A stretch of DNA of 40,222 bases from a virus: positions 1 through 40,222 of the IMG/VR virus record IMGVR_UViG_3300033153_004578. One strand, written 5' to 3'. A model generated the notes under the pieces. It did no database searches. It saw only the letters and a program-made list of their open reading frames with translations, and was not told the origin of the DNA. Positions 958-40,222 of this stretch are shown here, piece by piece. Made by a program: the position numbers and the translations under genes. Every line of letters starts with the position of its first letter. Position 1 is the stretch's first letter.

Positions 958-1352
958 TTCAGAAGCCTCTCAAGATGAAGCGCTGCTATTTTCACGTATT
1001 TTTCTTTATACTGCATCATTTTCGTCTCCAGGAATTTCGGCCCTGATCCCGGAAGATTGTAAGACGACTGCTGGCCTTTCTCTTTTTCGTGCTGGTATGC
1101 CGCATAAATAATATTATAACCCTGTTCTGAGTATATCTCATTTTTCGTCTCTTTTACGTTCACGATTTTCGCACCCCGAAGATCGCCTTTGAGAAACGGA
1201 GTCTTCGGCTCTTTCTTGTCTGCATCATGCAGCATTTCGGATGCCGCCTTGAACAGCCCTTTTTTTATCTCTTCCGGTGCGGATTTTTCTATCAGCTTTT
1301 TCAAGTCCTTATCGAAAGCTTTAAAATCCATAGTAAAAGGCTTGCTACTCAC
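954..1352 (-). CDS. HK97 gp10-like head-tail joining protein (probable)
   Basis: This 132-aa protein has an N-terminal amphipathic helix (DFKAFDKDLKKLIEKSAPEE), then a region with a conserved-looking PFLKGDLRGA and a final helical stretch. That layout is typical of the HK97 gp10 / tail-component family, in which the 'GxLr.S' core follows two helices. It overlaps both neighbours by 4 bp. The order closure protein, gp10-like, terminator, tube is the standard siphovirus neck order and supports the call. Confidence 0.6.
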   Translation of the reverse strand: MSSKPFTMDFKAFDKDLKKLIEKSAPEEIKKGLFKAASEMLHDADKKEPKTPFLKGDLRGAKIVNVKETKNEIYSEQGYNIIYAAYQHEKEKGQQSSYNLPGSGPKFLETKMMQYKEKYVKIAALHLERLLK

Positions 1353-1657
1353 GCTATAAATACCTCCTGATGATTTACGCTGAAATCTTTTGCCTCAACC
1401 ATATTTATCACACTGTGCCGCACATCGTCAATTTTGATGTAGTCTTTATGTGTGATTTTTCGCGGATGGTTGATGTATATCGTTGCAGATGATACCGTCT
1501 CTTCGCCTGCGATGTCTCTTACAAGTCTTGTTTTCCAATCGATATAGCCTTTGGTTTTAACGGACTTGTATGTCAGCTGGTTATACTTGTTCCGGCCGGA
1601 ATAGAAAAGAATCTCCAGGTCGTCTATCTCGTAAACTTCTAACATTGTAAATGCCAT
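1349..1657 (-). CDS. Head closure / minor capsid-like protein
   Basis: This is a 102-aa protein at the position of a head-closure (stopper) protein, directly after the MuF-like gene. It appears beta-rich; the internal YKSVKTKGYIDWKTRLVRD and NHPRKITHKDYIKIDD fit the small beta-barrel of minor-capsid or stopper proteins. The alternative start ATGCTAGAAG lies 5 codons inside. The stop overlaps the next gene by 4 bp. The call rests on position plus fold guess. Confidence 0.5.
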   Translation of the reverse strand: MAFTMLEVYEIDDLEILFYSGRNKYNQLTYKSVKTKGYIDWKTRLVRDIAGEETVSSATIYINHPRKITHKDYIKIDDVRHSVINMVEAKDFSVNHQEVFIA

Positions 1658-1658
1658 G

Positions 1659-2537
1659 TTAACCTCTCAGCGATATTGCCTCTTCTGATGTCGGGAAAAT
1701 ACTATGCTCGCAGTTCGGATGCCAGGGAGGATAGTCCGAAAGCACGTCATAACCAGGAGTTTTCCCGAAAAGGCTGTAAACATTGCCCTCATATTCAAGA
1801 CAGATATCATCGAATTCTGAGTTATGATCTGATACCTCAACCAGGTCGTTATCGTACTGTTTCGCAAGGTTGACGGTTGCCTGTGATTGCACTTTCCGGA
1901 GCCTTGTCCGGCCTACAAGCTCGGCATAATTTTTCAGATTATAGTTGCGTCCGTTGATGTTGATGAAATTGCCATCGCCCATGATCTTTGCAAAATGCGA
2001 CAGCACAGCTTTTTTTGCAGCAGTCCTTGTCTCGCCGGCAGCTATTAGCTCGTCCATAAGATTTGATACCACAACCTCATCCCGCATATCCCATGCCTGG
2101 AACTGCTCCATCTTCTCAGATGCGGCGCGTACCATGAAAAGTAATGCGTTGACATTCTCGATTATCGAATCATTGGCTTTTACAAGTATATCAAAAGTAT
2201 CGTCCCTGTATGTATCAATTGTTTTTTTATGAACGTTTTTGTCAAACTCCGGATTAGGCTCAAGTCCTAAAACCTGCATCCTGACTATGCCTATTTTCAT
2301 CGCCTCCTTGTATGCATCGCGCAGAGCTTTCCTTGTCCAGCCGGAGGCAAAAACATTGAGCCTGTGGACAAGCGCTTCAACTTTCTGCCTGACGCGCATC
2401 GCGCCGGCTTCGGAATAACCGTCAGACAGCAGTCCCATAACAACGGATTTAATCTGCCTTGAAATGTTGTCATAGAATTTCGTTATCAATGACAGGTCTT
2501 TTCTCTCCGGTATAAGCCCGACAGACCGTTTTGCCAT
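1659..2537 (-). CDS. MuF-like head morphogenesis protein (minor capsid protein 2 type)
   Basis: This 292-aa protein is mostly helical in residues 1-200. It ends in the diagnostic C-terminal block of MuF/minor-capsid-2 proteins: a DDICLEYEGNVYSLFG segment followed by PPWHPNCEHSIFPTS, where Cys and His residues are conserved in the family. These proteins sit at the portal vertex inside the head and can enter the host with the DNA. Unusually, the gene is far from the portal gene (about 11 kb away) because the glycan cassette and capsid genes lie between. It starts 1 bp inside the upstream connector stop. Confidence 0.8.
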   Translation of the reverse strand: MAKRSVGLIPERKDLSLITKFYDNISRQIKSVVMGLLSDGYSEAGAMRVRQKVEALVHRLNVFASGWTRKALRDAYKEAMKIGIVRMQVLGLEPNPEFDKNVHKKTIDTYRDDTFDILVKANDSIIENVNALLFMVRAASEKMEQFQAWDMRDEVVVSNLMDELIAAGETRTAAKKAVLSHFAKIMGDGNFININGRNYNLKNYAELVGRTRLRKVQSQATVNLAKQYDNDLVEVSDHNSEFDDICLEYEGNVYSLFGKTPGYDVLSDYPPWHPNCEHSIFPTSEEAISLRG

Positions 2538-3034
2538 TATACCCCCTCGTCCTCACCGCAAGTTATAACATCTGTCTCATCAACACACTCATCCTCATCC
2601 CTGTCAATATCGGTAATCATGAAATGCTTGGCTTTTATCCACGGCTTAAGAAGCGCAAGTACGAATGGTGGAATCGGCAGGCTCATCAGCATGTCCGCAT
2701 AATAATCCTCTTTGATGATCCCTGCTTTTATTACCGCCTGCGCCTGGATACCTTTCCGCCTGTCCTCATCTCTCAGGTGACAGCAGAGATAATAAGCCAT
2801 CTCACACTGCGCTTTTGTAAGGATAACAAGCTCAGATGCGCTTGCCTCGGCATATGTCGGCAGGCTGAAACGCGGATCGTAATAGAGCCTGTTGTATGCG
2901 TTTAGGAGTACTTTCGCCTGGAGTATCGAACCTGCAGACTCGGCACCTATCACATCCCAGCAGTCGGTCCTTAGCCTTTCTGTATCAAAATATGTCTGTG
3001 CTGCCGCCTGATTTACGAGCCATCCAATAGCCAT
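2537..3034 (-). CDS. Head-tail connector (adaptor) protein
   Basis: This 165-aa, largely helical protein follows the glycan cassette and precedes the MuF-like gene. Features include two helices rich in aromatic and Ala residues (AKVLLNAYNRLYYDPRF and KAQCEMAYYLCCHL) and an acidic C-terminus. The size, helix content and location match connector proteins that bind the portal base, but no diagnostic motif is visible. A less likely option is a scaffold-like or unknown head protein. Confidence 0.5.
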   Translation of the reverse strand: MAIGWLVNQAAAQTYFDTERLRTDCWDVIGAESAGSILQAKVLLNAYNRLYYDPRFSLPTYAEASASELVILTKAQCEMAYYLCCHLRDEDRRKGIQAQAVIKAGIIKEDYYADMLMSLPIPPFVLALLKPWIKAKHFMITDIDRDEDECVDETDVITCGEDEGV

Positions 3035-3035
3035 T

Positions 3036-3527
3036 TTATCCCCCTTTTCTCCAGAGCATTGTTATCCACTTATCCGTAAAAGTTATTGATGGATATTTCA
3101 GCGCTCTCATTACTTTTATGATTTTATCATATTTTGCGCGCTCCGCATTGTCAAGAATTAGATACCCTCCGGCTTTTAGATTGCGCAAAATGCTCATAGC
3201 AGTTTTTACCCGGCCGCGCCCGTCAATGAGAATCACATCAAATAATCCTTCGATCGTAAGTCCTTTTTTCGGATACTCCGGCTCATGCCTGAGATCAACG
3301 TTTTTAATCCCATGATATTCAAGCGTTTCTTTAACATTGTCATACCAGGATTTGTTATGCTCAAATGAGAGCACGTGTTTTGCTCTTTTGGCAAACCATA
3401 CAGTTGAAGCGCCGGCGCCAGCCTCTAAAACACTGGAATCAGAAGTCAAGACCGCCTCCAGGAATATAACAGAATTTGGAACGAGCCACGGTTTGCTTTT
3501 TTCTATTATCAACTCATCTCCTTCCAT
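3036..3527 (-). CDS. Class I SAM-dependent methyltransferase
   Basis: This 163-aa protein has SAM motif I at SVLEAGAGASTVWFA (residues about 32-46), an acidic residue at the end of strand 2 (FEHN), motif II/III at LFDVILIDGRGR and a later GGYLILDN strand. This is a complete small Rossmann methyltransferase without an added substrate domain. The start is inside the preceding methyltransferase-like gene (19-bp overlap). It is the last gene of the glycan cassette, so sugar O-methylation is a reasonable guess; the substrate cannot be read from the sequence. Confidence 0.85.
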   Translation of the reverse strand: MEGDELIIEKSKPWLVPNSVIFLEAVLTSDSSVLEAGAGASTVWFAKRAKHVLSFEHNKSWYDNVKETLEYHGIKNVDLRHEPEYPKKGLTIEGLFDVILIDGRGRVKTAMSILRNLKAGGYLILDNAERAKYDKIIKVMRALKYPSITFTDKWITMLWRKGG

Positions 3528-4075
3528 GCAACCATATTTGATCCTCTCGGCTTATCTTTTCTTATGCAGTCAACTTTATAACCGAATCTTTTAAAATCTT
3601 TCACATTCAAATAACTGCGATGCCTTTCGTATGGATTCCCGTCAACCTCTTTTTGCACATACCGTCCGATAGGAGCCGCCATGATCACGTAATGTGCTGC
3701 CAGAGATTCAAGCTTCTTGATAAGTTTCGGCAGCTTTTTCCTTTCCACATGCTCCGGCCCATGCCAGAACATGACAACGCCATAGCTGTCAAGCATCCCT
3801 TCTATACCATTATTCATGATATCAGCATGAATGATGTTCCTGAAAATCCCGTACTGCGCGTTAAGCTCTTCAAGCCCTTTAACATTAGACTCCCAAGCCT
3901 CCAAAACATCGATCTTGTAATTCCAGCCATAAAACAGATCAATCATCTCAAGCCTGTTTTTGTTGGCCCCGATATAAAGCAGTGTCTCATAATTTTTAAG
4001 CCCTTTGATATTCCTGGTTATCTGCTTTTTTCTTCTCTTCGCTCGCACCCGCCAATAAGTCCAAAAGTCTGTCAT
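3509..4075 (-). CDS. Second SAM methyltransferase-like protein
   Basis: This 188-aa protein shows a divergent Rossmann pattern: TLLYIGANKNRLEMIDLF in place of the classical glycine-rich motif I, an acidic strand-2 position in VLEAWESN, then YGVVMFWHGPEHVERKKLPK and a late strand HYVIMAAPIG. The 'GPEHVE' segment is like the post-motif region of methyltransferases that modify sugars and nucleotide-linked substrates. Motif I is weak, so SAM binding is probable but not certain. It starts with a single-base overlap with the glycosyltransferase upstream. Confidence 0.6.
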   Translation of the reverse strand: MTDFWTYWRVRAKRRKKQITRNIKGLKNYETLLYIGANKNRLEMIDLFYGWNYKIDVLEAWESNVKGLEELNAQYGIFRNIIHADIMNNGIEGMLDSYGVVMFWHGPEHVERKKLPKLIKKLESLAAHYVIMAAPIGRYVQKEVDGNPYERHRSYLNVKDFKRFGYKVDCIRKDKPRGSNMVAWKEMS

Positions 4076-4845
4076 CAGTTATCTCCTCCAGGCACCTGCT
4101 CTTTCCGTATCCCATAGTCTTTCAAGATGCCGATAATCTTGCTTCTATCAGTTATGAAATTATTCCGTTTCGCTTTCTCTTCTAAAAAATACCGCCTGCT
4201 TGCCGGGTCTTTTCCGATACGATTCCAGGTCACATTGTCCCGGTGCCGGATGATGCAGACTTTTCTCGGACTCAGCCGCTGCTGCGGATTCCTGTATGCT
4301 CCGAATTGTTCTCTGCATAACCGCTGCCAGTTCTTATACTGCGACCTCGGCCAGCAGTGAGTCGTAAACGGGGAAACGATTATCCTGATATCCGATACGA
4401 AATTATGCAGGATATTCCACTGTATGAGATCGCGGAACCCCATCGTCGTTTTGCGATCTGTCATGATAGTCCTGTCTCTAACCTCAAGCATCGCGTCTTT
4501 GTGAAAGCAGTCGTCAGAGTCTATCCGCGTTAGAGACAGCCACTGGCTTTGAAGCTCCTCTATCCGGCTTTTTCCGTAATCATAGACAACCTCAACCCTA
4601 TCTCCAAAATCATAGCTTGACGTTATGTTTCTATGCGCCTGGCCGCAGTAGAGCCACACTCTGAAATCATCAAACGATTGGCTTAGAAGGCTTTGCAGTG
4701 TAAACTGCTTGAATATCCTGCATCTCCGTTTGACCCATTTCTCAGAGCGGATCTTTACGGCAAACCGTTTCTTAGAGACTCCGAGAAACCGCTCGGCATC
4801 GAGCCAGGAGACAACAACGAATTGGATCTTTTTATTATTTGTCAT
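4075..4845 (-). CDS. Putative rhamnosyltransferase-family glycosyltransferase
   Basis: This protein of about 256 aa resembles the putative rhamnosyl transferase family (PF11316). It has an RFAVKIRSEKW start region, RCRIFKQFTLQSLLSQSFDDF, and a metal- and nucleotide-binding TRIDSDDCFHKDAM motif near residue 110. The ORF could start at 4857, but the ATG at 4845 is preferred: it overlaps the stop of the 52-aa gene upstream and has an AGGA about 12 bases away. It belongs to the cassette that appears to build a modified glycan; the donor sugar is not determinable here. Confidence 0.75.
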   Translation of the reverse strand: MTNNKKIQFVVVSWLDAERFLGVSKKRFAVKIRSEKWVKRRCRIFKQFTLQSLLSQSFDDFRVWLYCGQAHRNITSSYDFGDRVEVVYDYGKSRIEELQSQWLSLTRIDSDDCFHKDAMLEVRDRTIMTDRKTTMGFRDLIQWNILHNFVSDIRIIVSPFTTHCWPRSQYKNWQRLCREQFGAYRNPQQRLSPRKVCIIRHRDNVTWNRIGKDPASRRYFLEEKAKRNNFITDRSKIIGILKDYGIRKEQVPGGDN

Positions 4846-4993
4846 AATAAATATCATATCCTAACTTATCAAAATGGAGGATGATGATTTGCCTCAATCT
4901 GATTTTTTCCTGTTTATGATTAAGGTCAAATTCCTTTTCAATTTTTCTTGCTAGTTCCTGCAGAACAGTCATTGAGATTCTCTTATTTTTCAT
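4835..4993 (-). CDS. Small basic hypothetical protein (52 aa)
   Basis: This short ORF codes for a helical, basic 52-aa peptide beginning MKNKRISMTVLQELARK. It has a strong GGAGGG ribosome site just upstream. Its ATG overlaps the sulfotransferase stop (ATGA) and its stop overlaps the next glycosyltransferase start, so it fills the gap in the operon exactly. I do not recognise the family; a small DNA-binding or adaptor peptide is possible. Confidence 0.6.
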   Translation of the reverse strand: MKNKRISMTVLQELARKIEKEFDLNHKQEKIRLRQIIILHFDKLGYDIYYDK

Positions 4994-5643
4994 GCCCCCT
5001 CCCTATGATGCCAAAGTCTATCATCAATAAACTTTATCAGCTTGGATGGATTCTTTGGAAACTCCAAGTCCAAAATAGAACAAAGATAGCAAAGCTTTAC
5101 TTTCCACCCAGGCTTAAAAAAGTCGTGAAAATAGACATCGGTTGTCCAGACCCCTGTGCTTTTTATGGCTTTTTCTGCTCTTAATATATACGTTTCTGCC
5201 AGCTTTTTACCTTTATCCAAAGGTATGTTATTCCTTTTTTTCAAACTGGCAGCAATCTCAGAGACCGGCCTGCGCACATAAACGACCTTCACGGGCTCAG
5301 GCTCTGTGATGTGATGCCAGAAAGGAAACGTAAGGCACAGCCTGGGGTCTTTAAAACCGCAGTTCCTGTCTTCCGGAAAGCCGGAAAGAAACAATTTCGC
5401 CCTATCTATTATATGCTGTTTATATACGAGCTTCTCCGGCGGCCTTTTCCAGTCGCCTAAATTTGAAAACAATATCTGGTTATTTATCCTGATAAACTCC
5501 CGGTTCTCGAAATGGCCTTTTGGATTATCCCTTGCACCCATCAGCAAGTTATTGCCAAGATAGAGGCCGCATTTGTGGAGCAGCCCGGTAACAAGGCTTG
5601 TGCCTGATCTGTGCATCCCGATTATGAATATCTTCACAGCCAA
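4990..5643 (-). CDS. Sulfotransferase (PAPS-dependent), copy 1
   Basis: This 217-aa enzyme is predicted to transfer sulfate from PAPS to a hydroxyl, probably of a sugar. The 5'-phosphosulfate-binding loop is at residues 8-18 (IGMHRSGTSLV) and the 3'-phosphate-binding region is at VVYVRRPVSEIAAS (about residues 119-132), with the Arg and Ser of the family. KDPRLC between them matches the sulfotransferase-3 type. It overlaps the second sulfotransferase by 10 bp and is followed by the 52-aa ORF. Sulfotransferases are uncommon in phages. Confidence 0.88.
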   Translation of the reverse strand: MAVKIFIIGMHRSGTSLVTGLLHKCGLYLGNNLLMGARDNPKGHFENREFIRINNQILFSNLGDWKRPPEKLVYKQHIIDRAKLFLSGFPEDRNCGFKDPRLCLTFPFWHHITEPEPVKVVYVRRPVSEIAASLKKRNNIPLDKGKKLAETYILRAEKAIKSTGVWTTDVYFHDFFKPGWKVKLCYLCSILDLEFPKNPSKLIKFIDDRLWHHREGA

Positions 5644-6359
5644 TCCTCAAACTCTTTACCAAGATACGTAAACAACCTCTCATTATAAGGCTTGTAATAT
5701 TCCGAAAGCCAGTTTTTGATATGCTTTGGAACAGCAGGATACTTGCTTTTTTTATACTGGTTACTCTTTTTAGGATCAAAGTATACAGGATTTGTTATGT
5801 ATATCATCTGTATTTTGAGCCATTTATGGATTTCTAAAATCACGTTTGTAATATCTGCGTAAAAATCCTCAGACTTAATGATAAGAAATTGCTTTTTTTC
5901 AAAATTATCATGCCAGTGTTTAAGCTGCTCAAGATACAATCCCTTTTTCACCCAGTCGGTTTCAGCGTCCATCAAAGCGTCCGGATGGAGCCGGTGCTTC
6001 TCCCGCCAGTGATAAAAATGGCTCCAGGCTCTTTTAACAGGATCACGCAGCATTACGATAAACTTTAAGCGCCTCCAGTTCGGGAGCGATTCTTTTATTT
6101 TCCATGGTACTTCCTTGACATAGAGGTAATTCGGCGTTGTCTCGAATTTCAAGACTCCTTTAGTATTAGGCCAGAGGCCAAGATACCACGACAATCCCCG
6201 ATTATATTTGGAGCGCTTATCGAAAAAGTGCGCTTCTTTATTATTGCCACCAAGAAGCTTTGGCCCACAAAGATCAGGATGTGTTTCAAGGTTCCGGTGA
6301 AGCGTTGATGTGCCTGACCTTGCAGCACCGATAATAAGAAAATCAGGATATTCGCTCAT
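5634..6359 (-). CDS. Sulfotransferase (PAPS-dependent), copy 2
   Basis: This protein of about 241 aa has the same two cofactor motifs in different surroundings: a PSB loop at PDFLIIGAARSGTSTLHRNL near the N-terminus and a 3'-phosphate site at LKFIVMLRDPVKRAWSHFYH. The layout, including the HFFD segment after the loop, is like carbohydrate (heparan-type) sulfotransferases. The reading frame is open to 6407, but ATGs at 6362/6359 overlap the upstream stop and have a GGAG 5-8 bases away. It is not a recent duplicate of copy 1, because the sequences differ strongly outside the motifs; two acceptor sites are likely. Confidence 0.88.
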   Translation of the reverse strand: MSEYPDFLIIGAARSGTSTLHRNLETHPDLCGPKLLGGNNKEAHFFDKRSKYNRGLSWYLGLWPNTKGVLKFETTPNYLYVKEVPWKIKESLPNWRRLKFIVMLRDPVKRAWSHFYHWREKHRLHPDALMDAETDWVKKGLYLEQLKHWHDNFEKKQFLIIKSEDFYADITNVILEIHKWLKIQMIYITNPVYFDPKKSNQYKKSKYPAVPKHIKNWLSEYYKPYNERLFTYLGKEFEDWL

Positions 6360-7006
6360 CATGAATACTCCGGCCAGAACCGCTGCGCTGATTTTCTCGG
6401 CCTCCATATCCGCCTGTCAGACTCAAGCGTCTTTTGTGCGACAGCCTTGCATCTGTCCCGTATCCTTGCGTGATCAACCTTGCACTTCTTGCAGAGAAAG
6501 AACCTGTTAATGTGTTTTGCATAATGCCATAACTCCGAGTCGCCGCAGAAATGAACATAAGCAGGATTGAAAACTTGCCTATCCGGGAACCTCGAAACCC
6601 ACTGCCTGCCAAACATGCCAAACGCTGCAGGACAGAAATGGTTAAGGTTCTGCTGGAATCCGATAACGCCATCGCCGCAGAACAGCTTATCGAGCATTTT
6701 AACGGCATGTTCGATCGTTTGCTTATGAAAATAGATATCGTCTGCGCCGTAGATATATGTCTCATAATCGGTTGCTGCCAAAACCCTGTTTAGGCTTTTC
6801 GGCCAGCCCAGCCTTTTCTCGTTGAATAATATTTTGACCTTATTATTTTTAGCATAGACTTCCTCTAGCCGCTCATAATATTGCTTGTTGACATCAACAA
6901 TAATGGTTATTCTTGTCTTTTTATGGGAGCTTGCAAACACAGAGTCAACCGTCCTCTGGATGAGCCGCATCCTGTCGAATGTCGGTATAATAACATTAAT
7001 GCTCAT
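6359..7006 (-). CDS. Family 2-type (GT-A) glycosyltransferase
   Basis: This 215-aa protein has a typical GT-2 start, MSINVIIPTFDRMRLIQRTV. An aspartate-containing strand follows (TIIVDVN), and a DxD-like YIYGADDIYFHKQTIE lies near residue 95. The frame opens at 7036, but the ATG at 7006 overlaps the upstream stop as ATGA and begins the domain precisely. The C-terminus contains a CGDSELWHYA segment, a CxxC pair (FLCKKCKVDHA) and a basic tail. It is predicted to add a sugar in the cassette's glycan; donor and acceptor are unknown. Confidence 0.85.
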   Translation of the reverse strand: MSINVIIPTFDRMRLIQRTVDSVFASSHKKTRITIIVDVNKQYYERLEEVYAKNNKVKILFNEKRLGWPKSLNRVLAATDYETYIYGADDIYFHKQTIEHAVKMLDKLFCGDGVIGFQQNLNHFCPAAFGMFGRQWVSRFPDRQVFNPAYVHFCGDSELWHYAKHINRFFLCKKCKVDHARIRDRCKAVAQKTLESDRRIWRPRKSAQRFWPEYS

Positions 7007-7908
7007 CGTGTAATCCTCTCGTGTATAATCTTGCAAATATATCCTGCATTGGCCTCAGGAGCCAAATACTCATCAAAATACACTCTGCCTTTTCTTGCAA
7101 CCGCCTCCCGTTCGGCATCGTGGCGGATGTAGTAATTGACGACATCTACAAAATCCGACATATCACGCTTGAACTCAATCCAGCAGCCGTCCGGATCGCC
7201 AGGCAGTACAGCGTCCGGCTTAACCGTCAGCACCGCAGCGCCCATGCCCCAGAGTTCCACATGCCGGAATGAGCAGTATGGAAGCTGCCGGCCTCCAGGG
7301 AGCGCAAGGTTTAGCCTGGTTTTTGTCTGAAAAGTCAGGTGATTAATATACGGAAGTCTCCCCATTTTGAGTTTTTCCGGCACTGTTGTATGATGCTTGA
7401 ACGGCATAAGCCCTGCATAGGAGTCCCATTTTTGAGCAAGTGCGGCTTTAACGCACCGCATCCTTAAACCGTTGTCGTCGTGCCAGCCGAGAAAGAGAAA
7501 ATCAAAATCATATTTTCTTTTATCTTTGATGATTCTCAGAGCATCCAGATGCTGCAAAAATAACTCATGATCAGACGGCGAATTCGGAGCAACGAAAAGC
7601 CTGGAAAACTTGTGCCTGTCTTTTAAGTGCAGGTGCGTTTTGAAATAGAAGCGTCCCGGAGCCATGAGGTTTCTGAAAAACATCCTTGGAACAGTGTTGA
7701 TGTCGTACAGGATTAGAGGCTTTTTTGTGCCGTACTGGAATTCTATTGGATAGACATACGGCCCTCTGGCGTTTGATCTCGGCTTGAGCTTTTTTATCCA
7801 GTGCTTTGATTTTACGATTTCAATCCCCATCCGCCTCAAGCCTTCAAGCAGGTAAAGAGTCTTTGGCCTCTCTTTTGTGTCCGGCCATATAACCCTGTCT
7901 GGTTTCAT
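7003..7908 (-). CDS. GT-B glycosyltransferase (group 1-like)
   Basis: This 301-aa protein has its informative part at the C-terminus. RLNLALPGGRQLPYCSFRHV and ELWGMGAAVLTVKPD form the donor-binding block seen in glycosyl transferase group 1-like (GT4-type) proteins. A helix follows with D-x-V-x-Y-Y-I and a run ending in YFDEYLAP. The N-terminal Rossmann half is less clear (IWPDTKERPKTLYLLEGLRR). It overlaps both neighbours by 4 bp. Confidence 0.75.
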   Translation of the reverse strand: MKPDRVIWPDTKERPKTLYLLEGLRRMGIEIVKSKHWIKKLKPRSNARGPYVYPIEFQYGTKKPLILYDINTVPRMFFRNLMAPGRFYFKTHLHLKDRHKFSRLFVAPNSPSDHELFLQHLDALRIIKDKRKYDFDFLFLGWHDDNGLRMRCVKAALAQKWDSYAGLMPFKHHTTVPEKLKMGRLPYINHLTFQTKTRLNLALPGGRQLPYCSFRHVELWGMGAAVLTVKPDAVLPGDPDGCWIEFKRDMSDFVDVVNYYIRHDAEREAVARKGRVYFDEYLAPEANAGYICKIIHERITR

Positions 7909-8483
7909 ACCGCCCCCTTTAAGCGCCTCGATGCCTGGAAATGCTCAATAACCGGCCTTATTTTCCGGCGATTCTCATCGTCAAATATACAGCAGTACTC
8001 AATAGGCAGCCGGTGAATGTTAATCTTTCCGGCGTTTGTCCTGACAACAGACTCAAGATTTCTCTGCTCAAGCATATGCGGACGGCTCTTGTTCGCCTCG
8101 ATCCATTCTGAAACAATGCGCCTCATCCTAGAATTATTGGCAATATAGAGCGTACCAGACAGCAGTTCGCCACGTCTTGCATGCCAGTCCCTGTAATGGC
8201 AGCCAAAATCAGCGCCGTTCATGCTCCCGAATAGCTGCGGATAGGAGTGAAACATGGAATCAGCGTCGGTAAAAACAACTGCATAATCTGGAAACTTCGT
8301 CATCATCCGGAGTATAAACCTCGCTTTGTAAAGCGTGTTTTTTTGCCACGTGCCGAAATTCTTGACTCTCTCGATATGGTACGGCCGAATCTTATGGAGA
8401 ATAAGGCTCGCCTCTAACGTTCTGGCTTCTTTCTCATAGCCTGTACCGGCTGTGAAATATGAGCAGACAACGAATTCAGACAT
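7905..8483 (-). CDS. Small GT-A fold glycosyltransferase with DxD motif
   Basis: This 192-aa protein has the pattern of nucleotide-diphospho-sugar transferases: N-terminal strand FVVCSYFTAGTGYEKEA, a Lys/Arg-rich helix KARFILRMM, the DxD at AVVFTDADSMF (about residue 70) and SGTLYIANN followed by EQRNLESVV near the C-terminus, where family members show a Gln-x-x-Leu. It is translated with an 8-bp overlap from the small NUMOD3-like gene upstream. It is probably one of four glycosyltransferases working in sequence. Confidence 0.8.
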   Translation of the reverse strand: MSEFVVCSYFTAGTGYEKEARTLEASLILHKIRPYHIERVKNFGTWQKNTLYKARFILRMMTKFPDYAVVFTDADSMFHSYPQLFGSMNGADFGCHYRDWHARRGELLSGTLYIANNSRMRRIVSEWIEANKSRPHMLEQRNLESVVRTNAGKINIHRLPIEYCCIFDDENRRKIRPVIEHFQASRRLKGAV

Positions 8484-8682
8484 TCCTCACCCTCTCTCTA
8501 TAAGCTCTAATGTTGGATTCGGAGATTTTCTTTATTGTCTCAGCGCTCAAGACTCTTCCCCTCATTCTCATTGCCTGTCTTTTTCTCCTCTCCGAAGTCC
8601 ATGCTTTCCTCATACTCTCTATCATTTTCTTTCTGTAATTTGGATTTTGCCATAGACTTTTTTGAGCCTCTGATTTTGTCAT
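8476..8682 (-). CDS. Small NUMOD3-like basic protein (68 aa)
   Basis: The peptide begins MTKSEAQKSLWQNPNYRKKM and ends with GRVLSAETIKKISESN plus a basic tail. The second part resembles the NUMOD3 DNA-binding repeat that accompanies homing endonucleases. No nuclease domain is present. It overlaps the 3' part of the cupin ORF in another frame for 143 bp, and the cupin tail there looks like low-complexity shadow sequence. Its stop overlaps the next glycosyltransferase start by 8 bp, which supports translation. It may be a leftover of a homing element. Confidence 0.55.
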   Translation of the reverse strand: MTKSEAQKSLWQNPNYRKKMIESMRKAWTSERRKRQAMRMRGRVLSAETIKKISESNIRAYRERVRNV

Positions 8683-9025
8683 AATCGCTGCCTCCCTCGA
8701 CACGCCTCTCAATATCAGCCGTCCAGAGGCCTGTCTCGTATATCTCAATACACCGGCAATCTGTAAGCCCAACGAATTGATGCCAGATGTGTATTGGAAT
8801 ATTCATGCTCTCACCGGCTCTTAATACAGTCTCGTCAACCTTGTTGCCTTTACGCCAGAACCGGACAAGCAGTTCGCCGTCAATAACATAAAACATGTTC
8901 GTTTTCCAGGCATGCTTATGTTCCGAGCAGTAACCGCCTTTCCGGATATTCAGAAAATGCACTTCGACTCTCTGGTCGGAGAATATTCTCGTAGTCTCGC
9001 CCCAGACTTTACCTTGTTTATCCAT
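8540..9025 (-). CDS. Cupin-fold protein (sugar isomerase/epimerase-like)
   Basis: This 161-aa ORF has a single cupin domain in residues 5-105. Motif 1 appears as CSEHKHAWKTNMFYVIDGEL, with two His as metal ligands, and motif 2 as SMNIPIHIWHQF. The pattern is that of mannose-6-phosphate isomerase-type cupins and small sugar-binding cupins. It suggests a nucleotide-sugar or sugar-phosphate step that feeds the cassette. Residues after about 120 are Lys/Glu-rich and overlap the NUMOD3-like gene. The start overlaps the MptE-like gene by 8 bp. Confidence 0.75.
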   Translation of the reverse strand: MDKQGKVWGETTRIFSDQRVEVHFLNIRKGGYCSEHKHAWKTNMFYVIDGELLVRFWRKGNKVDETVLRAGESMNIPIHIWHQFVGLTDCRCIEIYETGLWTADIERRVEGGSDYDKIRGSKKSMAKSKLQKENDREYEESMDFGEEKKTGNENEGKSLER

Positions 9026-9752
9026 TCAAGACCTCGTCGATATTTGCAATTTCGAAATACTTGAGCCGTGATTTCGGATTACAGTTATAGACCTGCACAC
9101 CTGTGCGCCTCAGTATTTCTGATGCCTTCCTGAAGTGCTTGACAAAACTCCTAAACGACGCCTCGCCCAGTGATACGGGATATGCCTTGTGGAAATGCGA
9201 CCGCTTGCCTGCAAAATAAAAGTCATAACCCAGAAGATATATCGGATTCGCTCCGAGACAGTAAGCCAGATTCAGCGCTCCGTGGCCGGAATTGTTCCCA
9301 TGCACAAGCCCTTTCCTCATGGAGGATGTCAGGCCCTCGGTTATTGAGGTATTGGCATATAGTTCATAACAGCCCGGAATGTGCCTCTTTTGCAGGAGAT
9401 CGAGAAAGACTTTGTATCCTTGATACTCATCCCATGCTTTTTTAATCCCTTCGTTCATCCTGCCTTTTACTGCATGCGTATAGAAGTTCGCCTTGTCCAT
9501 GAAAAAAAGAATATCGGCAGACATGCAGAACCGGAACGCTGCATTTATGGCAATAACCCGTTCACCGCGAAGCCTTTCAAAATCAAAGCCCTCAAGCGAT
9601 GTGCCGCCGCCGAGGATAAAGCACCGCTGCCCATGCCAGGACTTATCAGGCAGTACGTCATACAGCGGATTGTCCGGCACTCGTACCGGATAATCGCCCT
9701 TCATCCTGGCCCTTACAGCAGGACTCCGCATAGTTATCTGGTTTAGTTCCAT
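9018..9752 (-). CDS. MptE/DUF115-like Rossmann protein, possible glycosyltransferase
   Basis: This 244-aa protein has a glycine-rich N-terminal block CFILGGGTSLEGFDF, then VIAINAAFRFCMSADILFFMD and, later, NSGHGALNLAYCLG followed by IYLLGYDF. This series matches the DUF115 / MptE-like group (Rossmann fold; motility-accessory-factor and pterin pyrophosphokinase-like proteins, some of which transfer nonulosonic acids). In this cassette a sugar-transfer role is plausible but unproven. It is the first gene after the major capsid gene, behind an 88-bp spacer with hairpins. Confidence 0.65.
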   Translation of the reverse strand: MELNQITMRSPAVRARMKGDYPVRVPDNPLYDVLPDKSWHGQRCFILGGGTSLEGFDFERLRGERVIAINAAFRFCMSADILFFMDKANFYTHAVKGRMNEGIKKAWDEYQGYKVFLDLLQKRHIPGCYELYANTSITEGLTSSMRKGLVHGNNSGHGALNLAYCLGANPIYLLGYDFYFAGKRSHFHKAYPVSLGEASFRSFVKHFRKASEILRRTGVQVYNCNPKSRLKYFEIANIDEVLNG

Positions 9753-9803: not shown

Positions 9804-9828
9804 AAAAAGTCAGCCCGGTTAAGGGCCT
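9804..9828 (-). terminator. Weak terminator-like hairpin after major capsid gene
   Basis: After the capsid stop codon the minus strand reads AGGCCC, a short loop, GGGCT, then GAC and five T. The stem is short with one bulge, so termination would be partial. A leaky terminator after a capsid gene would lower expression of the enzymes downstream. This is inference. Confidence 0.35.
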
Positions 9829-9840
9829 CTCTTCAGCCTC

Positions 9841-10935
9841 TTAGCAGGAACCGGACTCCAGATCAACTTCAACGCATTCGATCTGGTCGGTATCCCCGAT
9901 ACAGCCTCCATATCTCATCCATCCTGCCTGCACATCGGCATAAGTCAGGATGTCGAAATCACTGAACAGACTCAAGTCCATTCTGTATCCGCCTTTGAGC
10001 CGTCTCTTAGGCAGGATAACATAGAACCTGTTTGGATTGCCGAGCATTAAGGATGTGATATGCGTGAATTTCCAGTCCGTAACAGAAGGACTGCCAACGA
10101 ACTGCTGCAAATTGAGCCCCATTGCACGGCGGATTCTGCCTCTCAGGCGCAGCGGCGTAAGCACGATCATGCCCGGATCTTGATTCAGGCCGTAGCCCTT
10201 GTTTCTGTTCGCTGCAAGAATTGTCTCTGCGGCCAGATTCATGGAAAGCGCATCTCGCCAGGCCGTGGCATCGCAGTCATTGCAGCCGCCAGGTGCTGCG
10301 ACCCAATCACAGCATCCCTTCGCATCGCCAATAGCCTCGATCAGCGTGTAAAAAGCCTGTGCTCTTGTGGAATATGCGGCGGCGACAAACGCTTTCGCAT
10401 TATCCTCGACTGTCCACCAGTCCTCATCATCGAAAAGAATCCGTGACCAGGAAAGCGCACCCCCGTACAGGTCAAAATAACAGGTCGCTTTCGTTCCCGA
10501 CATTTGATAGACCTGGATCGGAACGCCCTGCTGAGCCTTCTCAAAGGCTAACCCTGACGTTACATTGCCTACCTCGAACCCGTTGCGCTTTGAACCGGCA
10601 TAGTTCCGGATGTCGAAAATCTGCTCATAGGCTCTGTCATAGTCCGGTACTGCATGGAACTTCTCGATAACAGGAAGCACGGACGCAGGAAAATCGGAAG
10701 GCTTTCCGAATGCCTGGATCTCCGCTGCTTTCAGTTTCGATTTTTCCTCAAGATACTGGACTTTGGCTTTCCGGAAATAGACAGACTCTTCATCATTAGC
10801 CTGAAATCTTTCAGGAATGAAAAGGTCCGGGAGCGCCATGAACATCTGAAGCGCCTTGAAAAGGTTCCTCCTATGTGTTTCGTTCTCGATATCAAATTTT
10901 TCTAGCTGTCTGAAATATTGTAATTGCATTGTCAT
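9841..10935 (-). CDS. Major capsid protein
   Basis: This 364-aa protein is assigned as the head shell subunit (HK97 fold expected). Evidence is position (after the protease-scaffold and decoration genes), length, and a layout with an N-terminal helical arm, a central domain (residues about 110-250) and a region typical of capsid A-domains (PGMIVLTPLRLRGRIRRAMG). It has an unusual number of cysteines: CC near residue 213, CNDC at about 223 and three near the C-terminus. Disulfides or metal sites in the shell are possible. The first ATG (10935) or the ATG two codons later could start it. Confidence 0.8.
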   Translation of the reverse strand: MTMQLQYFRQLEKFDIENETHRRNLFKALQMFMALPDLFIPERFQANDEESVYFRKAKVQYLEEKSKLKAAEIQAFGKPSDFPASVLPVIEKFHAVPDYDRAYEQIFDIRNYAGSKRNGFEVGNVTSGLAFEKAQQGVPIQVYQMSGTKATCYFDLYGGALSWSRILFDDEDWWTVEDNAKAFVAAAYSTRAQAFYTLIEAIGDAKGCCDWVAAPGGCNDCDATAWRDALSMNLAAETILAANRNKGYGLNQDPGMIVLTPLRLRGRIRRAMGLNLQQFVGSPSVTDWKFTHITSLMLGNPNRFYVILPKRRLKGGYRMDLSLFSDFDILTYADVQAGWMRYGGCIGDTDQIECVEVDLESGSC

Positions 10936-18239: not shown

Positions 18240-18256
18240 CCAAAAAGTGAAAGAGA

Positions 18257-18477
18257 CGCTCAATTATCGTGGTTTTCTCGAGGCGTGTGGCTCACTCGTT
18301 GTCAATGGTTTTCTCCTAAATTCTGGCTCGCTCATTGATCGTGGTTTTCTCATGCTTTATGGCTCGCTTGTCTCTTTTGGTTTTCTCTACAATCATGGCT
18401 CGCTCATTTATCCTGGTTTTCTCGGCTATAATGGCTCGCTCATTGATTCTGGTTTTCTTGCCCGTCGTGGCTCGCTC
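18257..18477 (-). repeat. Array of twelve 18-bp units with two alternating cores
   Basis: Read on the minus strand the units are GAGCGAGCCA plus 8 variable bases, then GAGAAAACCA plus 8 variable bases, alternating six times, with a GAGCG remnant at 18257-18261. Cores are nearly invariant (three single changes), while the 8-bp parts show no shared consensus. The period is exactly 18 bp. The array lies between the stop of the IS110-like gene (18483) and the lysis promoter. Iterons, operators or an RNA leader are possible. The plus strand is open for 86 codons, but that is expected from the cores and is not good evidence for a gene. Confidence 0.9.
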
Positions 18478-18482
18478 AATCG

Positions 18483-19220
18483 TTAGCTCTTCGGTTCGAT
18501 CATCTCGCTCGGATCAATGTAACCCTGATGACCCATCTTCTCGTGAGCATACGGCTTATTTGTTGGCAGCCCTTCGGCCTCTCTCCAGACAATCCACAGG
18601 TGCTGCAAAAATAGCTTGATCATCTTTCTCATTGCCTGCATATCAACATGTCCCAACCCGTAATAACCGTCTTTCTCGACTCTCTTGCCCTTCTCAAGAG
18701 GAAGCTTGTTCGACTCAATGATTTTTATCCCCTGGTTTTCCAGCCTCTTCGTCAGCGTCATTTTCTGGTTCTTGTAAAAATCATAATAAGCGCCTTTCGC
18801 CCTTATCAACGATTTCGCCAATCTCCAGCACATTGATTTTAACGTTTTGTTGTAATGGAGCTTCTCACCCTTCGTGATCCGCTCGGCTTTCCCATCAGAA
18901 TTAACGCCAAATCCAGCATATCTCCAGAGGTTGCTGACATGGACGGCCTTTTCAATATCAATGTGACCTATAACTTTCCCGATGTTTACAGGGCCGATCC
19001 CCTTGATCTTAGAAAACCAGGAATGAGCAGGATTCTTTTTCACTTCACCCTCAAGCAAATCATTCAGCCATTCCTCGACTTCAGCCAGCTTATCCAGGAC
19101 AAGATTTGTCAGCGTGTCTGTCCTCTCTTTTTTCGCAAGATGAGATTGTCTGACTTGCGCTGCAACTCTGGCTTTTTGGATGTAATCCAAACTGTCAACT
19201 ACCAAATTAATTCCTTTCAT
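18483..19220 (-). CDS. IS110-type transposase C-terminal domain protein lacking the RuvC half
   Basis: This 245-aa protein resembles the Transposase_20 domain of IS110 enzymes. SKIKGIGPVNIGKVIGHIDI is a helix-hairpin-helix at residues 70-89, LWRYAGFGVNSDGKAERITK carries Ser108 at the place of the family's catalytic Ser-x-Gly, and MCWRLAKSLIRAKGAYYDFY follows. The N-terminal 65 residues form a coiled coil; the RuvC-like DEDD domain of true IS110 enzymes is absent. The C-terminus (FLQHLWIVWREAEGLP, PYAHEKMGHQG) is typical of a phage-linked branch. No IS ends are seen. It may be a domesticated DNA-binding or recombination protein. Confidence 0.7.
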   Translation of the reverse strand: MKGINLVVDSLDYIQKARVAAQVRQSHLAKKERTDTLTNLVLDKLAEVEEWLNDLLEGEVKKNPAHSWFSKIKGIGPVNIGKVIGHIDIEKAVHVSNLWRYAGFGVNSDGKAERITKGEKLHYNKTLKSMCWRLAKSLIRAKGAYYDFYKNQKMTLTKRLENQGIKIIESNKLPLEKGKRVEKDGYYGLGHVDMQAMRKMIKLFLQHLWIVWREAEGLPTNKPYAHEKMGHQGYIDPSEMIEPKS

Positions 19221-19922: not shown

Positions 19923-20047
19923 TTCCGTCCTCCTGTAAAAAATCGTCTAAGCATTTCAGCCGCCCAGGAACCAAAACTAACTGCTGTCCATACAGCCGCT
20001 AATATGGCTGCTGCCAAAGCGATTAATATAATCCAATACCAACTCAT
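19919..20047 (-). CDS. Small single-span membrane protein (42 aa)
   Basis: The 42-aa peptide starts MSWYWIILIALAAAILAAVW, one clear transmembrane helix, and ends with a basic segment (MLRRFFTGGRK). It has a GGAGAGG site and overlaps the repeat-protein stop by ATGA. It forms the first of five consecutive tiny genes that lead to the holin. Confidence 0.6.
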   Translation of the reverse strand: MSWYWIILIALAAAILAAVWTAVSFGSWAAEMLRRFFTGGRK

Positions 20048-20808
20048 TTCACCTCTCCTTCCCATAGAATATCAGCATCCTCACCGCCATATAGCCTCCA
20101 TTTCTTACCGTTGAAAACTGGCACTAGACCCTGCATCCATAGATCAACAGCAGGCTGAAAAGGATACTCACCTTTTGTGTGGTTGACACCCTTCCACTTC
20201 TCTATAACTGGAGAAAATAAATAACCGACGTATGCCCTGACTGAATCCCTGACTGAATACCAGACTGAATACCAGACTGAACCCCAGACTGAACTCCAGC
20301 CCGAATCCGAGACTGGAACCCTGACTGAACTCCAGACTGAACTCCAGCCCGAATCCGAGACTGAACTCCAGACCGAATCCGAGACTGAACTCCTGACTGA
20401 ACTCCAGACTGAATCCCATTGTCTCAGTAATTCTAAATGCTCTTTTGTTATTGTATCTGGAGGTTTTATTTTGAATGGATGCACAGGATTACATGCCTCT
20501 TTGTATTTCCATTTGAAAACCTTCTCTGGCCTCAACTCTTCAAGTACTCGCAACTGCTTGAATCCACACTTGTTACCATCCTCTGCGTATGGTTTTCCCT
20601 CAACGAGGTACAATGAACAGGGAATTTCACCACCTATGAAGCATTGGTTCGGCTCACGACTGGCGTGGATGGCTGTGTTGGAGCACAGTTGAATCTTCCC
20701 CTTATTTGGACGCTTGACGGTTTTTCCAATATTATCTCGGTAGTTGATGGTTCTTCCCGTGTAGAAGTCCCAGCCGTCAGGTCTTGCTATTTTGTAGAAT
20801 TTATTCAT
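20044..20808 (-). CDS. Tetrapeptide-repeat protein with DUF7666-like head
   Basis: This 254-aa protein has three parts. Residues 1-128 form a head with GKIQLCSNTAIHASR, shared in pattern with the protein at 28523-29248 and similar to DUF7666. Residues 131-194 are 16 tandem four-residue units of the form [WRS]-[SDYG]-S-[VG]. Residues 195-254 form a C-terminal cap with FNGKKWRLYGGEDADILWEG. The repeat coding is almost regular at the DNA level (12 bp). No enzyme motif is visible. It is probably a rod or scaffold-like accessory protein; the role is unknown. Confidence 0.75.
   Translation of the reverse strand: MNKFYKIARPDGWDFYTGRTINYRDNIGKTVKRPNKGKIQLCSNTAIHASREPNQCFIGGEIPCSLYLVEGKPYAEDGNKCGFKQLRVLEELRPEKVFKWKYKEACNPVHPFKIKPPDTITKEHLELLRQWDSVWSSVRSSVSDSVWSSVSDSGWSSVWSSVRVPVSDSGWSSVWGSVWYSVWYSVRDSVRAYVGYLFSPVIEKWKGVNHTKGEYPFQPAVDLWMQGLVPVFNGKKWRLYGGEDADILWEGEVK
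20227..20418 (-). repeat. In-gene tandem 12-bp repeat (16 units)
   Basis: The stretch encodes the W-S-S-V type tetrapeptide array. Units such as TGGAGTTCAGTC and TCGGATTCGGTC recur with little change, showing recent expansion by slippage or recombination. Copy number probably varies between isolates. Confidence 0.9.
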
Positions 20809-28335: not shown

Positions 28336-28526
28336 TCGCTCATCTCCTTTTTCGTTTTATGATATTCTCTGGCTGATTCAAATAATTTTTCCATAAAATT
28401 ATCAAGCACCTGTTTCCTCTTTTCTTCGTACGTCATTTTGAGAACCGAGCTGCAATATTCCGTCACTGCATCTTTTAGTTCTTTAGGCCAAATTTCAACG
28501 ATACAGTATAATTTTGGGCGTTTCAT
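28332..28526 (-). CDS. Hypothetical protein (64 aa)
   Basis: This 64-aa protein begins MKRPKLYCIVEIWPKELKD. It looks like one strand followed by a basic C-terminal helix. It overlaps the RHH gene start by 4 bp. It could be a partner of the RHH protein, as in small toxin-antitoxin-like pairs, but there is no direct evidence for that. Confidence 0.55.
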   Translation of the reverse strand: MKRPKLYCIVEIWPKELKDAVTEYCSSVLKMTYEEKRKQVLDNFMEKLFESAREYHKTKKEMSE

Positions 28527-29248
28527 TTCTCATCCTTCCTTTCTATAGGTGTAAGCCTCCTTATCCTTCTCACAACCCATCTATGGCATTTGGCAAGAAT
28601 TTCTTGATAGGCGGCAGTCCAGACGGCAGACCTGGCAGCCCAGGCGGCAGACCAGGCAGCAGCCCTAGTAGGCTCGGCGACAGATTCGACAACCCAGGCA
28701 ACAGATTCGGCGGCAGACCTGGCAGCCCAGGCAGCAGACCAGGCAGCCCCGGCGACAGACTCAGCGGCCCAAGCGACAGATTCGGCGGCCCAGATGGCAG
28801 ACTCGGCGGCAGACTTAGCAGCCCAGGCGGCGAGCTTGTTTTCTTCTGTTGGATTTTTCAACCATGCCCTTGCAGCATTGATTGCTTGCCTAGGTCTTTT
28901 ATCATCGGAATATTTTCTCTCAAAATTATCAATAACCAATTTAGTCGCATAGATAGTCAATGCCACGGAGTCTTCTTTTTTCCATTCCCATGCTTTCACT
29001 ACTCGCATCTCTGTCCATGCTTGTTTATTGTTATTTATTTCTCCTCGCACCTCTACTTTGGCAAGCACCTCCATGTCAGTGTACTTCATGGCATCTATGA
29101 TGTTTTCCGAGGCGTGGGAACCGTTAGAATAGAGCTTTACCTTGCCATCCACTTTTCTCCACTTGCCGATTTCCCACTGGCTGCCGTCATATCCTGATCT
29201 TAAACCAGCTTTCATAGCTTTCCATAGATATGGCATTTTATTCCTCAT
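28523..29248 (-). CDS. DUF7666-like head with Ala/Trp/Ser repeat rod
   Basis: This 241-aa protein has an N-terminal domain (residues 1-130) with WEIGKWRKVDGKVKLYSNG followed by SHASENIIDAM and EVLAKVEVRGEI, which matches DUF7666-type proteins. Residues 139-213 are a degenerate Ala/Trp-rich repeat of the form W-A-A-x-S-x-A, likely helical. The end is basic (RWVVRRIRR). It shares the head motif G-K-[IV]-x-L-x-S-N-x-H-A-S with the protein at 20044-20808, with a different rod. The function is unknown. Confidence 0.75.
   Translation of the reverse strand: MRNKMPYLWKAMKAGLRSGYDGSQWEIGKWRKVDGKVKLYSNGSHASENIIDAMKYTDMEVLAKVEVRGEINNNKQAWTEMRVVKAWEWKKEDSVALTIYATKLVIDNFERKYSDDKRPRQAINAARAWLKNPTEENKLAAWAAKSAAESAIWAAESVAWAAESVAGAAWSAAWAARSAAESVAWVVESVAEPTRAAAWSAAWAARSAVWTAAYQEILAKCHRWVVRRIRRLTPIERKDEK
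28610..28834 (-). repeat. In-gene repeat coding for the Ala/Trp rod
   Basis: The region repeats GC-rich units such as GCCTGGGCTGCC and GAGTCTGTCGCC in irregular order. It is far richer in G+C than its neighbours, which is expected for Ala/Trp codons and may also reflect expansion or transfer. Confidence 0.75.
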
Positions 29249-39615: not shown

Positions 39616-40180
39616 TATTTTACTCCTCCAGGTTTATCCAGAGATTTGAGGCCCCATTTGATCTGCATAAGTTCTTGCGAGACGTCTTCTGCCTTCCCGT
39701 GCATGGCCAGCCTGTACTCAACCAGCCTGTTCTGTTTTTTGCTCAATCTCAATTTCTCCGCCTGAACATACCAGAATTCCAAATCTCTCAAGTCCAGAGA
39801 ATCGAAATCGCTGTAATGGAAGAGTCCTGGAAACTCAGAGCAAACGATCGCTAACTTGAGTCTCCAGGACTTTCCGAATTTGGGCCTTTTTCTGTCTGCG
39901 CTTCGACTTTCTCAGCGTCCGTGATTGCGCTTAGGACCATAGCGTTTATGTCACGCACTTCAGGAGCGTCCAGCTTGTGGAGAATTTTCACCGGTATTCC
40001 GAACGCAAAATTAGCCTGCTGGTACGGCGAATCAAGATCACCTTCTATCGCAGCTTTCTCATATGACAGGAATTTCTCAAGAAAATCTTTGGTTATTTTC
40101 TTGCAGATATAGACCTTATCATCGATCTCGATCTCAAGCGGCTTATAGATACTTTTTGCTGTCTTAAATTTTGCTCTCAT
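39615..40180 (-). CDS. Tail assembly chaperone fusion (G-T type) made by -1 frameshift
   Basis: The first frame runs from 40180 to the TAG at 39851 (109 aa). In the -1 frame an ATG-less reading frame is open to the TAA at 39615 that overlaps the tape-measure ATG. A shift at C-CCA-AAT (39884-39878) would replace the last 8 residues by 87 others (starting FGKSWRLKLAIVC; with LRDLEFWYVQAEKLRLSKKQ), giving 188 aa. The second part looks like gpT proteins with their Trp/Phe-rich helix. Lambda G/GT and other siphoviruses make both forms at a fixed ratio. Confidence 0.85.
39851..40180 (-). CDS. Tail assembly chaperone, short form (G-like)
   Basis: This 109-aa protein comes from normal termination at TAG 39851. 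It has a basic N-terminus (MRAKFKTAKSIYKPLEIEID), a helical middle (YICKKITKDFLEKFLSYEKA) and an acidic end. It would coat the tape-measure protein during tail assembly. The 5' end is also present at 1-72. Confidence 0.8.
   Translation of the reverse strand: MRAKFKTAKSIYKPLEIEIDDKVYICKKITKDFLEKFLSYEKAAIEGDLDSPYQQANFAFGIPVKILHKLDAPEVRDINAMVLSAITDAEKVEAQTEKGPNSESPGDSS
39878..39884 (-). promoter_or_regulatory. Slippery heptamer C CCA AAT for -1 frameshifting
   Basis: In the zero frame the codons are GGC CCA AAT, so C-CCA-AAT fits the X-XXY-YYZ rule exactly, with re-pairing to CCC and AAA. It lies about 30 bp before the TAG of the short form and inside the overlap of the two frames. I did not identify a downstream stem-loop by eye. 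Confidence 0.75.
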
Positions 40181-40222
40181 TGCGATCCCTTAGTTGACAC
40201 CGATTGTCCCAAATTCTCCTAC
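40109..40222. repeat. Terminal direct repeat, right copy
   Basis: This copy is identical to bases 1-114. Together the two copies show that the ends join, so the start and end of the sequence are arbitrary. Confidence 0.95.
40190..40222 (-). CDS. Major tail protein, 3' end only (repeat of 82-114)
   Basis: The last 11 codons, including the stop, of the tube-protein gene are repeated here through the circular overlap. The complete gene is at 82-603. Confidence 0.85.
   Translation of the reverse strand, partial: VGEFGTIGVN

Follow-up and report, generated by a model that had tools for sequence, protein, structure and literature searches.

The 40,222-nucleotide virus record IMGVR_UViG_3300033153_004578 of IMG/VR (the window, by which the whole stretch at its full length is meant) carries a cassette of ten enzyme genes between the gene for the major capsid protein (MCP) and that for a probable head-tail connector. 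The enzymes of this island, which look soluble, probably glycosylate a protein of the virion, the glycan being sulfated and methylated, a reading whose virion target is included in its estimated probability of about 0.6. An original prediction had placed an eleven-gene set for glycan building and tailoring at this site. Pfam and PHROG matches confirm that the cassette is real, and its location, its minus-strand orientation and the claimed activities hold with small corrections; the count comes to ten enzyme genes plus two tiny open reading frames (ORFs). The enzyme genes, with overlapping or nearby ends, lie between the MCP gene, which ends at 9841, and the connector gene, which starts at 3034. 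In the order of transcription the features are as follows, SAM standing for S-adenosylmethionine:

9841..10935, minus strand: MCP, HK97-type family PF25209 (Pfam Phage_capsid_4 2.1e-7; family alignment A1)
9812..9827, minus strand: weak hairpin resembling a terminator, located after MCP and ahead of MptE, perhaps an attenuator (does not exceed the shuffled background)
9018..9752, minus strand: MptE-like/GT42-like glycosyltransferase, conserved anchor of the island (PF01973 1.3e-6, below cut-off; PHROG 4603 1.4e-34)
8540..9025, minus strand: small cupin (Cupin_2 1.2e-9)
8476..8682, minus strand: tiny ORF, NUMOD3-like (NUMOD3 E 0.007; its insert is missing from the relative L002)
7905..8483, minus strand: glycosyltransferase of the Nucleotid_trans type (PF03407 4.8e-5, over cut-off)
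7003..7908, minus strand: GT4-like glycosyltransferase (Glyco_trans_1_2, PF13524, 3.9e-7)
6359..7006, minus strand: GT2 glycosyltransferase (PF00535 2.9e-11; its start ATG at 7006 overlaps the preceding stop)
5634..6362, minus strand: sulfotransferase 1 (ST1), like heparan-sulfate 3-O-sulfotransferases (PF00685 7.5e-20)
4990..5643, minus strand: sulfotransferase 2 (ST2; Sulfotransfer_3, PF13469, 0.0018, rescued by family alignment A3)
4835..4993, minus strand: tiny 52-aa ORF (absent from L002 by alignment)
4075..4857, minus strand: putative glycosyltransferase of the rhamnosyltransferase type (PF11316 1.1e-4, just below cut-off; alignment A4, SDD motif)
3509..4075, minus strand: SAM methyltransferase 1 (mt1), recognised solely via the homologue L161:10342-10905 (Methyltransf_25 1e-4)
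3036..3527, minus strand: SAM methyltransferase 2, PCMT/Methyltransf_24-like (PF01135 3.8e-5)
2537..3034, minus strand: probable head-tail connector, the downstream border (function inferred from position; no family match)

The cassette has four Pfam-supported glycosyltransferases (three above cut-off, one just below) in addition to the MptE/GT42-like protein. ST2, the rhamnosyltransferase-type gene and mt1 are weak when taken singly but are made clear by family alignments and homologues; mt1 also occurs in a second phage lineage, beside ST2. The cupin adjoins the MptE-like gene in many relatives, before or after it; it probably isomerises or epimerises a sugar or sugar nucleotide, or else is a tailoring enzyme that depends on a metal. 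Its C-terminal extension is specific to the window phage. The two tiny ORFs, which had been counted as cassette members, were rejected as such because neither has a counterpart in the closest relative, L002. The one at 8476-8682 is a probable relic of a homing endonuclease (NUMOD3), which overlaps the cupin gene and seems to have lengthened its end. Mean hydropathy is below 1.7 in all ten window proteins, a lenient hydropathy limit is passed by just 6 of 194 cassette proteins of relatives, and the cassette proteins look soluble, with no predicted membrane segments.

The position of the island is conserved while its filling varies. An MCP-family scan of IMG/VR yielded 34 loci, down to 31% MCP identity, and in 29 of the 30 that extend past the MCP gene the MptE-like gene comes next, an intervening cupin being present in two (L027, L031). 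To avoid circularity a second scan was anchored on the MptE family alone, with 80 of 336 relatives kept. The nearest recognised upstream gene, cupin ignored, is a window-type MCP in 59 of these 80 loci, which are not mutually independent and include some near-copies; it is the head-tail adaptor of a different capsid lineage (lineage 2) in 16. Three further loci run into a contig end, and two, in large phages (L142, L152), have an unrecognised upstream gene. Homologous cassettes at the same site in related phages, a check proposed with the original prediction, were found by both scans; that the cassette splits the normal head gene order is likewise true, but this is not peculiar to the window phage, being normal in its lineage and recurring elsewhere. 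In the 39 loci where both borders are present, MCP and connector lie between 0.6 kb (L034, MptE only) and 9.6 kb (L010) apart. The genes that follow MptE vary strongly from phage to phage and mostly encode glycan enzymes; among the other fillings are radical SAM/SPASM proteins and a GDSL-like domain fused with ST1. In one island (L005:12429-13214) an unrelated ORF, which by eye resembles a C5-cytosine methylase, is inserted between two glycosyltransferase genes.

Lineage 2 (e.g. L161) has an MCP of PHROG 1623 (2e-48) with no detectable similarity to the window MCP. Its gene order is MCP, lectin-like protein, head-tail adaptor, MptE, cupin, glycosyltransferase, GT2, glycosyltransferase, ST2, mt1, glycosyltransferase, connector and gp10. 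ST2 and mt1 are frequent in its cassettes, and the 15 top relatives of an ST2-anchored search (L036-L049, L055) all lie within such head-operon islands. In path length on the tree the ST2 of the window lies nearer to lineage 2 than to L003-L005, but a single clade is not rejected (approximately unbiased test, p-AU 0.085), and transfer of ST2 between the two lineages is not claimed. Among named phages, a sialyltransferase-like gene stands between MCP and adaptor in Pseudomonas phages D3 (orf7) and PMG1. In Tetraselmis viridis virus S20 nine genes (TVGG_00041-00049), two of them of the sialyltransferase-like type and others for glycosyltransferases and a methyltransferase, form a cluster that separates the head genes from head closure. 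D3 and S20 resemble the window in the sialyltransferase-like gene at the head junction, and S20 also in its cluster of glycosyltransferases and methyltransferase, but no sulfotransferase is annotated in either, and the D3 capsid protein, the one tested, is unrelated. In CcrColossus, sialyltransferase-like, nucleotide-sugar transferase, methyltransferase and GT9-annotated genes follow the tail genes. The MptE-like gene accompanies virion genes, mostly of the head and sometimes of the tail, and the fact that in several lineages of phages it keeps to the junction of capsid and connector genes supports the reading of a virion glycan.

The MptE-like protein reaches 28.7 bits with the Pfam family of that name (PF01973), short of the gathering score of 34.6, and its closest PHROG (4603) is called an alpha-2,3-sialyltransferase, a name that is an annotation. 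A profile of 27 MptE sequences, a number that was needed since five gave noise, retrieved CstII sialyltransferases from the PDB (7e-4) and no HPPK. The likeness to family GT42 (Campylobacter CstII) lies in the motifs GxGPSL and SG..AI.LG...IYL.G.D, which align. In this alignment, of two short motifs only, N31 of CstII falls on N70 of the window protein, an invariant position, and N9 of CstII on a glycine. Unlike GT42 and Maf enzymes, to which the similarity is remote, the phage protein is encoded beside a capsid gene. Direct glycosylation of flagellin proteins has been proposed for Maf enzymes. In L020, L022, L025-L027 and L029-L032 the PF03407 enzyme forms the C-terminal domain of the MptE protein, and L019 has a fusion of MptE with a Capsule_synth-type domain. 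Because of these fusions MptE and PF03407 are taken to be a conserved core to which the other genes add variable extension and decoration, and a role in glycosylation is favoured.

All ten enzymes are present in L002, whose MCP is 96% identical to that of the window. Between the two phages dS, the synonymous divergence, is about 0.36-0.62 for cassette genes (synonymous sites half-diverged), and the ratio of nonsynonymous to synonymous divergence, dN/dS, is 0.03 for MptE, 0.05 for MCP and 0.05-0.13 for the remaining cassette enzymes. Purifying selection on all ten enzyme genes is strong, and their joint recurrence with dN/dS of 0.03-0.13 indicates that the cassette is not a product of chance.

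The nearest solved relatives of ST1 are heparan-sulfate 3-O-sulfotransferases, with 3-OST-3A1 (1t8t) matched at 1.6e-22 over residues 4-238, its full length. The sequence E-A-H-F-F-D of ST1 answers to E-P-H-F-F-D of 1t8t and RDPVKRAWSHF to RDPVTRAISDY, and the P-loop-like motif is retained. Both motifs for binding 3'-phosphoadenosine 5'-phosphosulfate (PAPS) are found in ST1, and E-x-H-F-F-D, whose Glu is presumably the catalytic base, is kept in most members of the family. ST1 is similar to glycan 3-O-sulfotransferases and would putatively transfer sulfate to a glycan hydroxyl; in contrast to the heparan-sulfate enzymes, it has no signal or membrane anchor. For ST2 no solved relative was found; its PAPS motifs GMHRSGTS and R-x7-S are invariant in all aligned members. 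The phage genome has no APS (adenosine 5'-phosphosulfate) kinase in a search with a working control; sulfate activation by the phage was rejected on this ground, and PAPS must therefore come from the host.

The proposed mechanism places the soluble enzymes in the cytosol, the site of capsid formation, where they would modify a structural protein of the phage's virion in consecutive reactions; the likeliest acceptor is the capsid or cement protein. Linking the protein to a sugar, or else the first committed reaction, would fall to the MptE/GT42-like protein, perhaps jointly with the adjacent PF03407 enzyme; enzymes of the GT4, GT2 and rhamnosyl types would lengthen the chain; and the two PAPS-dependent sulfotransferases and one or two of the SAM methyltransferases would cap it. 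The cupin may supply or adjust a sugar, and the donors (sugar nucleotides, PAPS and SAM) would be drawn from the host. Gene content, the conserved site with its variable filling, fusions, purifying selection, motifs and the absence of predicted membrane segments are observed; from them we infer the virion acceptor, the order of the steps, the sugars and the biological role, which could be that of a shield or of a change in adsorption.

The original prediction, which is supported in part, had allowed for a virion glycan or for a late change of host surface polymers. The virion part is preferred on the strength of the conserved site, the MptE fusions, the likeness of ST1 and the lack of membrane proteins. 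The host part, whereby the cassette alters the surface polysaccharide of the infected cell (serotype conversion, superinfection exclusion) and its head-operon site is merely historical, fits less well and is unlikely, even though relatives occur as prophages on bacterial contigs and conversion of host O-antigen by phage glycosyltransferases is well known (PMC12619734). The window cassette encodes neither a flippase nor a polymerase, has no lipid-linked initiating transferase, and contains nothing that clearly spans a membrane. Moreover, the position in the structural operon is kept across different capsid lineages, and conversion genes are usually located outside that operon. It is very improbable that the glycosyl-, sulfo- and methyltransferases hypermodify the bases of phage DNA: transferase-based modification of phage bases, sulfation included, has been described (PMC10829341), but the genome has no thymidylate-synthase-type gene in a search with a working control, the site is the head operon and not the replication region, and the closest enzymes act on glycans. 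A Tet/JBP search of the genome also gave no match, though its control was silent too.

A different doubt concerns the anchor: it might act as a pterin diphosphokinase, or serve the capsid as a small factor for structure or assembly, and the enzymes that follow would then be unrelated cargo gathered at a permissive insertion site. The PF01973 match and the strongly differing genes behind MptE among phages speak for this, as does the AlphaFold model, a good one (predicted local distance difference test, pLDDT, 87.6), for which the top Foldseek match in the PDB is HPPK/MptE of M. jannaschii (8sd5, 4.6e-4, template-modelling (TM) score about 0.5). The human sialyltransferase 6apj is second (4.5e-3), TM scores being low, and among viral models the matches are phage MptE-like proteins and, more weakly, a herpesvirus sialyltransferase. 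Fold and sequence by themselves would thus be compatible with a pterin kinase too, and MptE appears only distantly related to GT42. The in-frame fusions of MptE with glycosyltransferases in many relatives, the profile search of solved chains, which led to sialyltransferases and not to HPPK, and the predominance of glycan enzymes among the variable genes make such an explanation distinctly unlikely. Along with that top structural match, several points weigh against glycosylation of the virion: the residue equated with N9 of CstII in the two-motif alignment is a glycine; a distant MCP relative (L033) and a Microcystis phage have no MptE-like gene; in jumbo phages the gene stands beside tail or unrecognised genes, so that the acceptor may differ; and the glycan on these virions is a prediction from genes, not a chemical finding.

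Virion glycosylation as such has precedent. Mycobacteriophages (Che8, Corndog; Freeman et al. 2023, as cited in the two papers named below) are described as glycosylating their capsids and tails, and their phage-encoded glycosyltransferases have been proposed or shown to act on these proteins, in which they resemble the window phage as read here (PMC12619734, PMC11256854). Unlike the island, the glycosyltransferase genes of F1 phages lie near the 3' end of the genome and not beside the capsid gene (PMC11256854). Literature searches, in which many subscription papers were out of reach, gave nothing on point for phage sulfotransferases and no report of a sulfated phage particle or a capsid-linked island. 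To our knowledge, the glycosylating mycobacteriophages have no MptE/GT42-like anchor and no sulfotransferase. A capsid-linked island with sulfo- and methyl-tailoring would be an undescribed form of coat decoration. A broader proposal, tentative and at somewhat less than even odds, is that a widespread, modular, MptE/GT42-anchored system of protein glycosylation occurs in unrelated tailed-phage lineages and here builds a glycosaminoglycan-like sulfated and methylated virion glycan, giving the first sulfated phage particles. Only a few systems with glycosylated virions have been recognised in phages, and one gene position here marks such systems in many uncultured phages, in prophages of candidate phyla and in the cultivable model Pseudomonas phage D3, so that the role of the capsid-linked sialyltransferase-like gene is now directly testable. 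If true, a sulfated virion glycan would be new phage chemistry and a possible shield against binding by host or competitor, and the cassette enzymes, including the soluble relative of heparan 3-O-sulfotransferases, could serve as tools.

The window record has a direct terminal repeat of 114 bases (1-114 = 40109-40222), from which it follows that the assembly is complete and circular with 40,108 unique bases; a near-identity DNA search of phage records gave no match to it. The minus strand carries all the recognised genes of head, tail and cassette. The head module runs TerS, TerL (PF04466 6e-35), portal, scaffold-like genes, cement (PF09956 6e-10), MCP (PF25209 2e-7), cassette, probable connector, minor head protein, connector, gp10-like protein and tail genes. 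MCP is both the upstream border of the island and a candidate acceptor of the glycan. On the other side, the connector and minor-head genes at 1349-3034 match PHROG connector (4e-8) and minor head (5e-28) families, and in relatives the gene corresponding to 2537..3034 likewise stands downstream of the island, just ahead of the minor head gene. In PMG1 (L192) an annotated terminator (2380-2408) occupies the place of the window hairpin, after MCP and ahead of the sialyltransferase-like gene, an arrangement that would suit a weaker expression of the enzymes than of the capsid. An internal promoter set for the cassette was considered and dropped, consensus matches being just moderately above shuffles and proving nothing.

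A search of bacterial and archaeal genomes for the MCP, with patterns from alignment A1, found none, and relatives were later found through MptE. The MptE head-operon relatives occur in assemblies named Candidatus Aminicenantes (three) and Omnitrophota (one). One Aminicenantes genome (G003) holds two related prophages (L187 and L170) on contigs of 189 and 415 kb, with flanks that look bacterial by eye, and both have the order MCP-MptE-PF03407. These hosts are not transferable to the window phage, since the MCPs are just 39-45% identical to its own. On one of the two contigs a nearby gene resembles BrxC of BREX.

Elsewhere in the window, a TIGR-Tas system occupies 18240-19220 (minus strand). 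Its gene, 18483-19220, matches NCBIfam NF052498 'TIGR-Tas system RNA-guided endonuclease' (1.7e-55, 188 bits against a cut-off of 100) and behind it lies an array of 36-nt units built from GAGCGAGCC and GAGAAAACC in alternation with short stretches that vary. Tandem 12-nt repeats at 20200-20441 within the ORF 20044-20808 encode a repeat protein of the SVWSSVSD type, and a tRNA-Ile called there by ARAGORN (20299-20383) falls inside these repeats and is probably spurious. The ORF 28523-29248 joins a DUF7666 N-terminus to a long Ala/Trp-rich, heptad-like repeat (AAESVAWAAE).

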